Of a stretch of DNA of 35,236 nt, positions 3,709 through 12,087 are shown piece after piece (the stretch's first letter is position 1; each line of letters opens with the position of its first letter). The notes beneath the pieces were generated by a model. That model saw only the letters and a list, made by a program, of their open reading frames with translations. It made no database searches and was not told the DNA's origin. The stretch lies in the NCBI GenBank assembly GCA_020433455.1, contig JAGRCP010000017.1, positions 1-35,236 on the forward strand, in the 5' to 3' direction. The position numbers were made by a program, and so were the translations under genes. The DNA is from Caldilineaceae bacterium (GTDB taxonomy: Bacteria > Chloroflexota > Anaerolineae > Caldilineales > Caldilineaceae).

Positions 3709-4094
3709 GATGCGAAGTGTGCTCCTGTAAAAATTGGCTCGCTATTGAACTGCCGCCCGCGTTTGGGCAACCAAACAGGGCCGTACACATTTCGGCGACA
3801 ATAAAGCGGCGTCGGCTTGGCCGTTCTCAGTCGAGACAGAGCCCTTTAAACTAGCCGTCCCACAATGTTCGCTGCGCTGCAATAGCGTTCACTACGTCCG
3901 AAATCTTGCATTTTTTACTTTCCAAAAACGTAAAATAACGCGTACGCGTTCCCGGATTTTGACTTTCTCAGTGTACGCCGGGATCGACTCCCGGCCAAAA
4001 TTCGGGCTCTGCGCTGTAGCCTTGCCCAGCGGATATGTGATAGACTAGCGGCCATGTTACTGTGCTTATTGGTCCGGCAAGCTGTGTGCTTCCC
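3709..4094. other. divergent intergenic region with palindromes
   Basis: These 386 bp separate the divergent SH3b and DUF72 genes and contain no convincing ORF. Both promoters should lie here, but I could not pick -35/-10 pairs with confidence. Besides the 14-bp palindrome listed separately, GCCGGG (3977-3982) and CCCGGC (3990-3995) form a 6-bp hairpin with a 7-nt loop. An A/T-rich patch (3908-3938) sits on the side of the minus-strand gene. Confidence 0.5.
3937..3950. promoter_or_regulatory. perfect 14-bp palindrome, candidate operator
   Basis: AACGCGTACGCGTT reads identically on both strands and sits in the middle of a divergent intergenic region, about 230 bp from one start and 145 bp from the other. 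A perfect palindrome of this size fits a dimeric regulator's site. No regulator gene adjoins it, so the assignment is inference. Confidence 0.35.
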
Positions 4095-4949
4095 ATGATT
4101 GTCCTGGGCGTTTCTTCCTGGCTCTTTGACGCCTGGCGCGGCGTTTTCTATCCAGATAGTCTGGCGCGCGGCGATTATCTGGCCTACTACAGCCGTTATT
4201 TCGCCACCGTGGAAGTAAATACCAGCTTTTACGGCCGGCCTCGCCAATCGACAGTGGCCAAGTGGCTGGCGGCCACGCCGGACGGCTTTCAGTTTTGCCT
4301 GAAGTTTCCTCGGGCGATCAGCCATGAGAAGCAACTGGTTGATTGCCAGGCGGAGACCCGCTCCTTTTTAGACTTGCTCCGCCTTTTGGGGGACGCGGCT
4401 GCGCCCGCATTTTTGCAACTGCCGCCTGGTTTTACCCGGGCCGGCGCGGGGCGGACGCTGGCCGATTATCTGGCCTGGCTGGCTGAAGCCGGCAGGGATC
4501 TGCGCCTGGCCGTGGAGGTGCGGGCCGCTGATCTCATGACGCCTGCTTTTGTCGCCTATTTGCTGGATCTGGGATTGGCTCCGGTCCTGGTGGATCGGGT
4601 CAATACGCCCGATCTCTATCCTGCATATCTGGCCCTGCTGGAAGCGGGCAAGGGGCCTCGGTATTTGGTCATTCGCTGGATCGGCGATGACGCCAATGGC
4701 CCCACCGGCGATCGAGAGATTACGGCTCCCCGCGACGCAGAGCTGGCGCAATGGGCGGAACGGCTGGCCACGCTTCATCGTGCGGGGATCGACGTATTCG
4801 GCTACATGCATAATCCGTATGAAGGCCATTCCCCTGCCAGCGTGCGCCGCCTGCAGGCCGAACTGGCCCGATACGTCGATCTGCCCGCCTGGCAGCCGCC
4901 TCTGGAGCCGGAGGATGCGCCTCCCGGGCAATTGTCGCTGTTCTCGTAA
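4095..4949 (+). CDS. DUF72 family protein
   Basis: The 284-residue product matches the DUF72 (YecE-like) TIM-barrel family: GVSSWLFDAWRGVFYPDS near the start, EVNTSFYGRP, FQFCLKFPRAISHEKQL, and FGYMHNPYEGHSP near the end. Each corresponds to a conserved DUF72 block, and the length is normal. I start at the ATG at 4095, because family members begin only a few residues before the G-x-S-x-W motif. A GTG at 4062 would add 11 residues that look unrelated. The biochemical role of DUF72 is not established. The next gene begins 43 bp downstream on the same strand, suggesting cotranscription. Confidence 0.85.
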   Translation: MIVLGVSSWLFDAWRGVFYPDSLARGDYLAYYSRYFATVEVNTSFYGRPRQSTVAKWLAATPDGFQFCLKFPRAISHEKQLVDCQAETRSFLDLLRLLGDAAAPAFLQLPPGFTRAGAGRTLADYLAWLAEAGRDLRLAVEVRAADLMTPAFVAYLLDLGLAPVLVDRVNTPDLYPAYLALLEAGKGPRYLVIRWIGDDANGPTGDREITAPRDAELAQWAERLATLHRAGIDVFGYMHNPYEGHSPASVRRLQAELARYVDLPAWQPPLEPEDAPPGQLSLFS

Positions 4950-4992
4950 TCCACGCCTTGCGCATGATTCTGTTTACTTATCGAGGGAGACC

Positions 4993-6777
4993 ATGGACCG
5001 AACGACCCCTACCGCCCAAAACGAAGAAATTGAACTATACATCCGCACTTATTATTCTCTCCTGCGTAGCAGCGCGCCGGTGCGGGTGCGAAGTCTGGAA
5101 GACACCCACATGGCCATGAAATCCAGCCTTCACTATCACGCCGATAGCCCGGAGCTGGACATCACCGCGCTCGTCTATGCGGCCCTGCGCTTGCCGGATT
5201 GCATTCACGATACGCAACTGATGATCATGGGGCAGATGGAGGATGTCTTTCTGCGCGAAGGCTATGGCGACGTGACGACCTGGCAGCCGGTGCGGGCTCG
5301 GGCCAGACGTCGCAAATTTTATTATGAACCTGAGCAGTCTTATCTGGCTGCATTTGTCTCCAGCGTCAGCGATATCGACGATCTTATTCCTTGCCTGACC
5401 GCCTATCAGATCGAATGGAACAAGCTGCACCAGAAGCTCAACAGCGCTGATATTGGTCGCCGTTTGGCCCTTTCCCGGACTAACAACGGATATATTCCGC
5501 TGGAGATGCTGGATGAAATTCGCACGGTTCTGGGCCTGAGCGCGGATGACTTTGCCCGGCTCAATCAACTCTGGCCCCGGGAGATGTTCTTGCACAATTT
5601 ATCGGCTGCGGCAGTCAAGCAACTGGATATTCGCATCACCGTCTTGGGCAGCGGCCTGAGCGATTATCGTCGCAGCGTCCAGCAGTGGTGGCGACGCATT
5701 GAGGAGGTGACGCAGGATAAAGGGATTGGCCTGGCCCAGCGCCCCATCTATTTTGTCAGCAGCAACATTCACAGCATGGTCAATCTCCTTTCCGGCTCGG
5801 CCTGGGAACTGGAGGAAGAGCTGCGCCGCTTTGTGGAGGAAGAGAACCCTGAGGACCTGCGGGACGAATTGCTGCAGCTGTCCGCGGATGATACGGGCGC
5901 ATTCGGCAACTTGCTTTATTACGTCCTCCGTCCCTATATCAATCACGCAAACAGTCTGCCCGAAGACCATGAGCGGGTGCTGCGTCGGGAGCGCAAGGCC
6001 GGCGTCACGCGGATTACCGAGCCCCACTGTCTGGATGTAGAAGCCCAAATCATCGAGATAAATCGCCTGCGGGCCAAGCGAGTCGATCCCCGCCTCAGCC
6101 GCCTTTCAGATGAGGAATGGGCGCTACTGCGCAAGAGCGATGCGTTGATCATCAACATTGATTACCCCCTGGGCATGGCGGCTTACCATATTTTCAGCCA
6201 ACTCTCCACCGCGGTGGGCGCGATCCACGGCGTCTATATCCTGGGCAAGGCGGCTACCCTCAACGGACGCGTGGGCGACGTTATGATTCCCAACGTGATC
6301 TATGACGAGCATTCCCTCAATTCGTACCTCTTTCGCAACTGCTTCACTGCGCAGGATGTCGCTCCGTATCTCAAATACGGCACCGTCTTTGATAACCAGA
6401 AGGCGGTCACCGTGCGGGGCACCATGCTCCAGAATCGGGATTTTATGCACGTCTTCTACGAGGAGGGCTATACCGACATCGAGATGGAGGCGGGGCCCTA
6501 TCTCAGCAGTCTTTATGAGGATATCTACCCCAAGCGCTACCCTGTCAATGAAATCGTTAACCTCTTCATCAACGCGCCCTATGATATTGGCCTCATTCAC
6601 TACGCCAGTGACACGCCCATCAGCAAGCGTCAGTCCTTGCTCAGCAAGAGCCTGAGCTACTTCGGCGTGGATGCTACCTATGCTACCTCCGTTGCGATCC
6701 TGAATCGCATTTTGAAGAATGAAGCGGAACGCCTGCGAACTATTGTGACTGAGGAGAAGGGGACGGTTGAAGCATGA
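4993..6777 (+). CDS. uncharacterised protein with nucleoside-phosphorylase-like C-terminal half
   Basis: The 594-residue protein has an N-terminal, mostly helical region (about 1-375) that I do not recognise. Its C-terminal half recalls the purine/uridine phosphorylase fold. ALIINIDYPLGMAAYHI (from about 383) is followed by LGKAATLNGRVGDVMIPN (417-434), the place of the family's G-x-A-x-G-x-VGDVVIP strand. Near the end D-I-E-M-E-A-G (495-501) resembles the phosphorylase E-M-E ribose-binding motif. If active it may cleave or bind a nucleoside-like ligand. The frame extends upstream to 4549, but that part overlaps the DUF72 gene out of frame. The ATG at 4993 has GAGGGAG just before it. The stop overlaps the acyltransferase ATG (ATGA). 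It may belong to a named DUF (possibly DUF6909, from memory, unverified). Function unknown. Confidence 0.8.
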   Translation: MDRTTPTAQNEEIELYIRTYYSLLRSSAPVRVRSLEDTHMAMKSSLHYHADSPELDITALVYAALRLPDCIHDTQLMIMGQMEDVFLREGYGDVTTWQPVRARARRRKFYYEPEQSYLAAFVSSVSDIDDLIPCLTAYQIEWNKLHQKLNSADIGRRLALSRTNNGYIPLEMLDEIRTVLGLSADDFARLNQLWPREMFLHNLSAAAVKQLDIRITVLGSGLSDYRRSVQQWWRRIEEVTQDKGIGLAQRPIYFVSSNIHSMVNLLSGSAWELEEELRRFVEEENPEDLRDELLQLSADDTGAFGNLLYYVLRPYINHANSLPEDHERVLRRERKAGVTRITEPHCLDVEAQIIEINRLRAKRVDPRLSRLSDEEWALLRKSDALIINIDYPLGMAAYHIFSQLSTAVGAIHGVYILGKAATLNGRVGDVMIPNVIYDEHSLNSYLFRNCFTAQDVAPYLKYGTVFDNQKAVTVRGTMLQNRDFMHVFYEEGYTDIEMEAGPYLSSLYEDIYPKRYPVNEIVNLFINAPYDIGLIHYASDTPISKRQSLLSKSLSYFGVDATYATSVAILNRILKNEAERLRTIVTEEKGTVEA

Positions 6778-7427
6778 ACGCTCCTGTCGACGCTACCTGG
6801 TTTTGGCGTCTGCTTCACCTGTCGGGCTATTTCTTACAACTTTTTTTCTGTCGGATTGAAGTCAAGGGACGTGAAAATGTTCCGCTGGAGGGCGGCCTGA
6901 TTTTTGCCTGCAACCACAACATGGGGCCGGACTACGTTATTTTGGGCTGGACGAGTCCCCGTCAGGTTTACTTTATGGCTAAGAGCGACATTTTCTATTA
7001 TTCCGGCTGGCTAACCTGGTTCCTCCATCAGGTTGGGACCTTCCCGGTTGAGCGGGGGCGCGGCGGAAGAGGAGCCGTGACTGCTTCAGTTAAAATCGTG
7101 AAACAGGGCAAGGCGCTGGGCATGTTTCCCGAGGGAACGCGCAGTCGGGACGGTAATCTTCAAGCCGGGCGTTCCGGCGTGGCCCGCATTGCGTTGGCTG
7201 CCCAGGCTCCCATCCTGCCCGTAGTCGTGCTCAACTCGGAAAAGGTGCTGCCCCGGCGCTGGTTGCCCTGGAACCGTCCCCTGGTGACGATCGAGTACGG
7301 AAAACCTTTTCCTGTAACGGGCGATCCGGCCAACCCCGCGGACATCCAACTCGTCACCGATCGCACCATGCGCGGAATTGCTGCTTTGCTCCCCCCTAAG
7401 CGACGCGGCGTTTACGCATCAAGCTGA
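6774..7427 (+). CDS. plsC: 1-acyl-sn-glycerol-3-phosphate acyltransferase family protein
   Basis: The 217-residue product carries the PlsC/LPLAT signatures. Motif I is HNMGPD (His48 and Asp53, the H-x4-D catalytic pair) within ACNHNMGPDYV. The glycerophosphate-binding motif is FPEGTRSRDG (118-127). A proline-containing ILPVVVLN motif (about 148-155) matches the later conserved block. An N-terminal hydrophobic stretch (9-26) probably anchors it at the inner membrane face. The expected reaction is acylation of lysophosphatidic acid to phosphatidic acid. Its ATG overlaps the previous TGA by four bases (ATGA), so translation is probably coupled to the phosphorylase-like gene. Length is normal for the family. 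Whether this is the housekeeping PlsC or a specialised paralogue cannot be told. Confidence 0.9.
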   Translation: MNAPVDATWFWRLLHLSGYFLQLFFCRIEVKGRENVPLEGGLIFACNHNMGPDYVILGWTSPRQVYFMAKSDIFYYSGWLTWFLHQVGTFPVERGRGGRGAVTASVKIVKQGKALGMFPEGTRSRDGNLQAGRSGVARIALAAQAPILPVVVLNSEKVLPRRWLPWNRPLVTIEYGKPFPVTGDPANPADIQLVTDRTMRGIAALLPPKRRGVYASS

Positions 7428-10716: not shown

Positions 10717-12087
10717 ATGAAAACGCCAATTCTCACACTACCGGACAACGCGCCTCCTTCCTTTCATATGCTGGCCAAGCCCACGGGCGCGATCTGCAAC
10801 CTGGACTGCGCCTACTGCTTCTTTCTGGACAAAGAGGTCTTTTACGAGGGCAGCAAGTTTCGCATGTCCGACGACACGCTGGAAGAGTATATCCGGCAAC
10901 TCATTGAAGCCCATCAGGTGGACGATGTGACCATTGCCTGGCAGGGCGGCGAGCCCACCATCATGGGGCTGGACTTCTATCGCCGGGCCATGGCGCTGGT
11001 GGAAAAATACCGGCGGCCGGGCATGCGCTTTCTTCACACCATGCAGACCAACGGCACTCTGTTGAATCAGGAGTGGGCGGCGTTTTTGAAAGAACACGAT
11101 TTTCTCATGGGCATCAGCATGGACGGCCCGCGGGAACTGCACGATGTCTACCGGGTTGACAAGGGCGGCGGCCCCACCTTTGATAAGGTTCTGCGCGGCA
11201 TTCGGCTGTTGCAGGAGAACGACATCGAATACAACGTGCTGACCACGGTCAACAGCGTCAACGCCGATTACCCGCTGGAAGTCTATCGCTTCCTGCGCGA
11301 TGAGGTCGGCACCACGTGGATGCAGTTTATTCCTGTGGTCGAGCGGATCAACGAGGACGGCCTGACGCTGCGCCAGGAAGGCGATCACGTGTCAGACCGG
11401 TCGGTCCGACCGGAACAGTTCGGACGCTTTCTCAGCACTATTTTTGACGAGTGGATCACCCATGACGTGGGCCGGGTCTACGTGCAGACCATTGAGGCGG
11501 CCTTGCGCAACTGGCTGGGGATGAGTTCTTCGGGTATGTGCGTCTTTAACCAGACCTGCGGCACGGGGCTGGCGATTGAGCACAACGGCGATGTCTATTC
11601 CTGCGATCACTTTGTGGAGCCCGCTTATCTCTTGGGGAACATCCATAATAAGCACATGATCGAGTTGGTGGCCTCACCCGAGCAGCTTCAGTTCGGTCAG
11701 GATAAATATGACCGCCTGCCCCAATATTGTCTGGACTGCGATGTGCGTTTCGCTTGCCAGGGCGAATGCCCCAAGAACCGTTTCATTCTCACGCCCGACG
11801 GCGAACCGGGGCTGAACTACCTCTGCGCCGGCTTCCAGTATTTCTTCCGCCACGCCGATTTCGGCATGAAGATCATGTCGGAGCTCTACCGCCGCCGACG
11901 GGAGATCCGGGAGGTGATGCCCATCTACCGACGCGCCTTCGCCGATGTCGGCCGCAACGACCCCTGTCCGTGCAATAGCGGGCGCAAATTCAAGCAGTGC
12001 CACGGCCGGGAACACCAGGCGCGCCACGTCGGGCTCCCGACCCTGCGCTCCCAATCCCGTTCGGAGTTGACCGCAAACGTTTCATAA
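10717..12087 (+). CDS. anaerobic sulfatase-maturating radical SAM enzyme with C-terminal SEC-C motif
   Basis: The 456-residue protein has the radical SAM cluster CNLDCAYC (Cys27, Cys31, Cys34) followed by FFLDKE, typical of anSME-type sulfatase maturases. It has a SPASM domain with Cys275, Cys281, Cys296, Cys338, Cys341, Cys347, Cys351 and Cys370 available for two auxiliary 4Fe-4S clusters. These enzymes oxidise an active-site Cys or Ser of sulfatases to formylglycine in the cytoplasm. The C-terminus carries an extra SEC-C zinc motif, DPCPCNSGRKFKQCH (Cys417, Cys419, Cys428, His429), also found in SecA and many bacterial proteins. No sulfatase gene lies in this window, so the substrate is elsewhere. 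The ATG at 10717 has only a weak ribosome-binding site. The preceding terminator isolates it from the surface-protein gene. Confidence 0.88.
   Translation: MKTPILTLPDNAPPSFHMLAKPTGAICNLDCAYCFFLDKEVFYEGSKFRMSDDTLEEYIRQLIEAHQVDDVTIAWQGGEPTIMGLDFYRRAMALVEKYRRPGMRFLHTMQTNGTLLNQEWAAFLKEHDFLMGISMDGPRELHDVYRVDKGGGPTFDKVLRGIRLLQENDIEYNVLTTVNSVNADYPLEVYRFLRDEVGTTWMQFIPVVERINEDGLTLRQEGDHVSDRSVRPEQFGRFLSTIFDEWITHDVGRVYVQTIEAALRNWLGMSSSGMCVFNQTCGTGLAIEHNGDVYSCDHFVEPAYLLGNIHNKHMIELVASPEQLQFGQDKYDRLPQYCLDCDVRFACQGECPKNRFILTPDGEPGLNYLCAGFQYFFRHADFGMKIMSELYRRRREIREVMPIYRRAFADVGRNDPCPCNSGRKFKQCHGREHQARHVGLPTLRSQSRSELTANVS

Follow-up and report, generated by a model that had tools for sequence, protein, structure and literature searches.

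The DUF6909 gene

The DNA analysed here (the window) is a 35,236-nt stretch from a Caldilineaceae bacterium of the phylum Chloroflexota (assembly GCA_020433455.1, contig JAGRCP010000017.1). An open reading frame (ORF) on its + strand, 4993 to 6777, starts with ATG and encodes, stop codon included, a protein of 594 residues. The ORF is genuine, and its product gives a full-length match to the Pfam family DUF6909 (PF21850; E 2.4e-216, residues 32-575 on profile positions 1-535 of 535), scoring 719.7 bits against a curated cut-off of 27. DUF6909 is a known but uncharacterised family without an assigned function, and a literature search returned no paper on it. The family itself is not new; what is new below is its assignment to a fold, the position of the domain border, the link to an operon and a concrete enzymatic proposal.

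Neither the NCBIfam profiles nor PADLOC gave a match to the protein. Pfam matches up to E 1 included neither PF01048 (PNP_UDP_1) nor PF10423, the N-terminal domain of AMP nucleosidase (Amn), which was recovered at 2.5e-51 in E. coli Amn. Searches of PDB sequences, made with the single protein and with a 60-sequence profile, yielded chance matches only.

The purine-rich sequence GAGGGAG lies directly 5' of the ATG at 4993, and a start of the form M-[DE]-R-x-x-P is common to the relatives; for both reasons this shorter start is taken as the right one. An in-frame TTG lengthens the frame to 742 residues (4549-6777), carrying it through the upstream DUF72-like gene. This longer frame is an extension into the neighbour, and could lead annotation pipelines to a wrong choice.

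DUF6909 was found in 28 of 61 relatives and in 100 of the 301 Chloroflexota genomes sampled, as a single copy in almost every case; the 14 control genomes lacked it. Scanning GTDB genomes gave 443 loci. Full-length relatives with about 25% identity are encoded on two plasmids of Persicobacter (Bacteroidota); no copy was found in the phages or viral contigs searched.

Predicted fold and active site

AlphaFold modelled the full-length protein with a pLDDT of 90.0 and a pTM of 0.90, the latter suggesting that the placing of its two modules relative to each other is predicted with confidence. In this model, residues 230-578 or thereabouts (5680..6726; this and the other ranges written with two dots are on the + strand) adopt the nucleoside phosphorylase-I (NP-I) fold in its entirety, the domain of nucleoside phosphorylases and nucleosidases. 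Foldseek matched the model to 472 PDB chains at E ≤ 0.001, and the 50 listed are all NP-I enzymes; E. coli-type Amn is not among these 50, which is uninformative either way. VIA-align 2 superposed residues 230-576 on the purine nucleoside phosphorylase (PNP) 4m7w with a Z of 18.3 and an rmsd of 2.8 over 214 aligned residues, PNP and uridine phosphorylase being the closest solved folds. The first NP-I strand (250-256) precedes a variable helical insert at about 271-335 (5803..5997), delimited by the secondary structure of the model and by column entropy (mean 2.48 bits, versus 0.8-1.2 in core segments). Altogether, the two helical inserts of the protein are among its worst-conserved segments (2.5-2.7 bits) and the core segments are the best.

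An earlier note, made by a model from the sequence alone, had described phosphorylase-like motif blocks in the C-terminal part, preceded by 375 unfamiliar residues, and expected a nucleoside phosphorylase fold there. Both blocks are there, LGKAATLNGRVGDVMIP spanning residues 417-433 (6241..6291) and DIEMEA residues 495-500 (6475..6492), and the structural comparisons, together with the ME...SD residues, bear out the fold. The domain border at residue 376 has to be abandoned, since it cuts the NP-I domain in two. The 375 residues are unfamiliar in the literal sense of their sequence; with the fold starting at about 230, the unfamiliar module shrinks to some 220 residues.

Conservation was counted over an alignment of 161 relatives, and residue roles were assigned by motif or hand alignment, that is, at the sequence level. 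Residues invariant in all 161 sequences are R105-R106-R107 in the N-terminal module (5305..5313); S256, N258, H260 and N264 in the first-strand loop S256-S257-N258-x-H260...N264 (5758..5784); Y537; and G418, K419, G428 and D429 in the LGKAATLNGRVGDVMIP block, E497, M498 and E499 in DIEMEA, and D540 and P542 in the Y537-A-S-D540-T-P542 stretch (6601..6618). Because the last nine never vary, the motif blocks quoted above are not a product of chance. DIEMEA reads as the ribose-binding motif and the Y537 to P542 stretch as the proposed general acid or purine N7 contact: the methionine-glutamate pair that holds ribose in NP-I enzymes and the aspartate near purine N7 are recognised as M498-E499 and D540, so that E499 and D540 would be the ribose-binding Glu and the purine-N7 Asp. 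The profile aligner hhalign pairs E497-M498-E499 with D403-M404-E405 of Amn, and the SDTP stretch with S427-D428-K-P430, in a comparison that is itself non-significant. In Amn, M404, E405 and D428 are active-site residues, common to distant relatives, that contact base and sugar (PMC9584410).

A peculiarity of the predicted site is the first-strand loop, which takes the place of the PGDPxR phosphate loop of the PF01048 enzymes DeoD and Udp. The likeness to these enzymes lies in the fold over 230-578 (Z about 18), the E-M-E residues and the S-D motif (S-D in DeoD). DUF6909 differs from them in lacking a sequence-level match, in the 65 residues of its helical insert and in an N-terminal module of 220 residues. 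The classical phosphate-site motifs are absent as well: by hand-placed motif alignment, an SxNxHS loop (SSNxHS here) stands for PGDPxR, a hydrophobic residue for R87 of DeoD, and the invariant K419 for S90. Plain phosphorolysis is disfavoured since there is no equivalent of R87 or PGDPxR, and the reaction is probably a hydrolysis rather than a phosphorolysis. We therefore consider it unlikely that the protein is a classical purine or uridine phosphorylase with an extra domain, releasing a base and ribose-1-phosphate, as the label given in the earlier note implied, even though the closest solved folds are of this type and a PfkB kinase encoded nearby in some genomes weakly matches ribose-1-phosphate kinase.

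Amn (TIGR01717; PF10423 plus PF01048) also shares features with DUF6909. Both combine an N-terminal module with an NP-I core carrying M-E and SDxP, and both have an Asn after the first strand (N258 may be the counterpart of Amn N205, by hand alignment) and a flexible loop after SDxP. In DUF6909 this loop (residues 545-551; 6625..6645) is the only segment of at least three residues with a pLDDT below 50; L549 is invariant and most of its positions are restricted despite the low model confidence. We liken it to the conserved mobile loop that lies over the Amn site (PMC9584410), and it is a possible active-site lid. A divergent Amn in the narrow sense, converting AMP and water to adenine and ribose-5-phosphate, would also suit the Persicobacter relative, which reads SDNPLH versus SDKPLH. 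Against this, the N-terminal module is not recognised by PF10423, the window genome has no match to TIGR01717, and the hhalign profile comparison is non-significant (probability 0.3%; slices likewise). Neither Trp383 of Amn nor the His188-Tyr189 pair contributed by its partner chain is conserved by motif. Adenine, moreover, would need deamination before an enzyme of the xanthine dehydrogenase (XDH) type could yield xanthine from it. Overall, an Amn of this narrow kind seems to us rather unlikely.

When each half of the protein was compared by hhalign with uridine phosphorylase/DeoD, with Amn and with the other half, nothing emerged beyond the EMEA...SDxP stretch. For the uridine phosphorylase profile, the first PF01048 genes gathered from relatives were predominantly trimeric-PNP/MTAP-like and served poorly, and a second set was taken.

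The N-terminal module

The N-terminal module (residues 1-220; 4993..5652), modelled alone with a pLDDT of 89, is part of DUF6909 everywhere. Its fusion to the NP-I domain is not an isolated case but the standard arrangement throughout an established Pfam family. The module comprises a small sheet, a long helix at about 123-150 that is conserved like the core (mean entropy 1.0 bits), and a variable helical insert at about 154-208. Its invariant arginine triplet is a candidate phosphate or substrate contact.

Foldseek found no significant match for the module alone (best E 0.53). Of its top 50, 30 are NP-I enzymes, these rows being mutually related and not 30 independent matches; the NP-I share of the library is about 0.2% (of its 350,542 chains, 693 match at E ≤ 10 when the full model is the query). 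VIA-align superposed the stretch from residue 33 or 61 to residue 220 on positions 3-141, the first half, of uridine phosphorylases over 82-100 residues, with an rmsd of 3.7-4.1 and a Z of up to 3.8 (this best one with an rmsd of 4.1 over 100 residues), a level at which chance is possible. In uridine phosphorylase dimers, the partner subunit gives a His and an Arg (H8/R48) to the substrate site. Read by motif, H47 of the module would stand for H8, R106 for R48 and FDG for LDG. We thus tentatively envisage, as a possibility rather than an expectation, that the module is a degenerate copy of the first half of an NP-I domain, a built-in dimer partner keeping only H47 and R105-R107 (invariant or nearly so). 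hhalign gave no support for a half NP-I domain. If the idea is true, DUF6909 would show clearly how an interface between subunits can be converted into one polypeptide chain.

Gene neighbourhood and proposed reaction

Linkage was scored when DUF6909 and an XDH-type subunit gene shared a strand and lay no more than 1 kb apart. In Anaerolineae, 36 of 116 representatives have DUF6909 adjoining the fused FAD/2Fe-2S subunit and/or the molybdenum subunit, often between both. The genes usually run XdhC, (metallophosphoesterase), FAD/2Fe-2S subunit, small protein, DUF6909, molybdenum subunit, YqeB, YqeC/MocA; most of the downstream gaps measure 2-70 bp. This linkage holds between DUF6909 pairs only 46% identical. 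On the tree it forms marked clusters (7 changes versus 31 for shuffled labels), yet occurs in several deep branches. The subunits match xanthine dehydrogenases best, but below curated cut-offs. Purine specificity consequently rests on the residues Q218, E253, R361 and E698 kept by the molybdenum subunit, which, by motif, we take to be bovine Q767, E802, R880 and E1261, the purine-hydroxylase set. In another family, a gene for hypoxanthine phosphoribosyltransferase (HPRT) lies 51 bp 3' of DUF6909 (locus L133), and it is near in two further genomes; across all loci, three besides L133 have it nearby. A divergent PfkB kinase gene stands head to head with DUF6909 in five of the seven members of this family; its best matches, nucleoside kinase and ribokinase, are below cut-offs.

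The XDH-type, HPRT and kinase-like neighbours argue for a role in salvage or catabolism, salvage being among the roles that the earlier note had suggested. They indicate use of purine bases rather than methionine or menaquinone metabolism, which counts against a nucleosidase acting on some other adenosine compound, such as methylthioadenosine/S-adenosylhomocysteine (MTA/SAH), futalosine, adenosylhopane or an NAD-like molecule. The MTA/SAH nucleosidase MtnN does share the NP-I fold, E-M-E and S-D with DUF6909, and conservation across a phylum would suit such an activity; its first-strand GAMEEE loop, with Glu12, is absent from DUF6909 by motif. We regard this reading as quite improbable. NP-I domains are also used as ATP-degrading immune effectors. 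A phage-defence effector, or a non-catalytic nucleotide sensor, seems very unlikely here: PADLOC gave no match, the catalytic residues are invariant, and the nearly constant single copy, the broad spread and the steady operon speak against it.

We infer the reaction, substrate and residue roles as follows. The DUF6909 protein is predicted to be an N-glycosidase with the NP-I fold that acts on purine nucleosides or purine nucleoside-5'-monophosphates, a reading to which we give a probability of just under 0.6. In the C-terminal domain, E499 and M498 would hold the ribose and D540 would protonate the leaving purine. The rest of the site would be formed by the SxNxHS loop together with the N-terminal module and its three arginines, and these parts may bind a 5'-phosphate; the attacking group would more likely be water than phosphate. 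The freed base could then pass to the XDH-type purine hydroxylase or to HPRT, and the sugar to central metabolism.

Several observations weigh against such a purine N-glycosidase. Sequence-level similarity to NP-I enzymes is confined to the EMEA...SDxP stretch, the operon link is limited to parts of Anaerolineae, and some genomes have XDH-type genes but no DUF6909. A neighbouring kinase gene would suit a nucleoside as the substrate and not a nucleotide. As to the window genome, its gene for the XDH-type molybdenum subunit is on a different contig, the DUF6909 neighbourhood in the window contains no obvious purine partner, and four ordinary NP-I (PF01048) genes are already present. If correct, the proposal would add a purine-base-releasing step to the XDH-type operons of Anaerolineae, a group mostly known from uncultured members. 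The analysis provides a predicted fold and a testable function for a domain found in about one third of the sampled Chloroflexota genomes (100/301) and in a Bacteroidota genus.

In Caldilineaceae, the usual order is DUF72-like, DUF6909, transglutaminase/TPR, PlsC. The upstream gene of the window (4062..4949), presumably DUF72-like judging by its sequence, is at position -1 of DUF6909 in 13 loci (cluster 7) and is conserved in the family. The PlsC-like acyltransferase gene (6774..7427) overlaps the end of DUF6909 by four bases (ATGA), and its relative in L019 matches TIGR00530. The lipid link suggested in the earlier note is weak and was set aside, plsC being found 3' of DUF6909 mainly in Caldilineaceae, the window's own family. 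The transglutaminase-core/TPR gene that separates DUF6909 from plsC in most Caldilineaceae relatives is missing in the window. The genes flanking DUF6909 in other classes (penicillin amidase, Nramp, carbonic anhydrase, RraA-like, polyphosphate kinase, glycogen-type phosphorylase and others) have no theme in common.

Three minor observations concern other genes. In the Anaerolineae operon, a protein of about 125 residues, hydrophobic by eye and with no Pfam match, is consistently encoded between DUF6909 and the small subunit of XDH type (L059, 5611-5985; L057, 5602-5991). In one Chloroflexota family, a glycogen-type carbohydrate-phosphorylase gene overlaps the start of DUF6909 by four bases (L123, 2540-4852; L124, 10929-13613; Pfam on L123 only). 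Finally, positions 10717-12087 of the window encode a radical-SAM protein that, by eye, resembles anaerobic sulfatase maturases and carries a SEC-C-like Cys/His tail.
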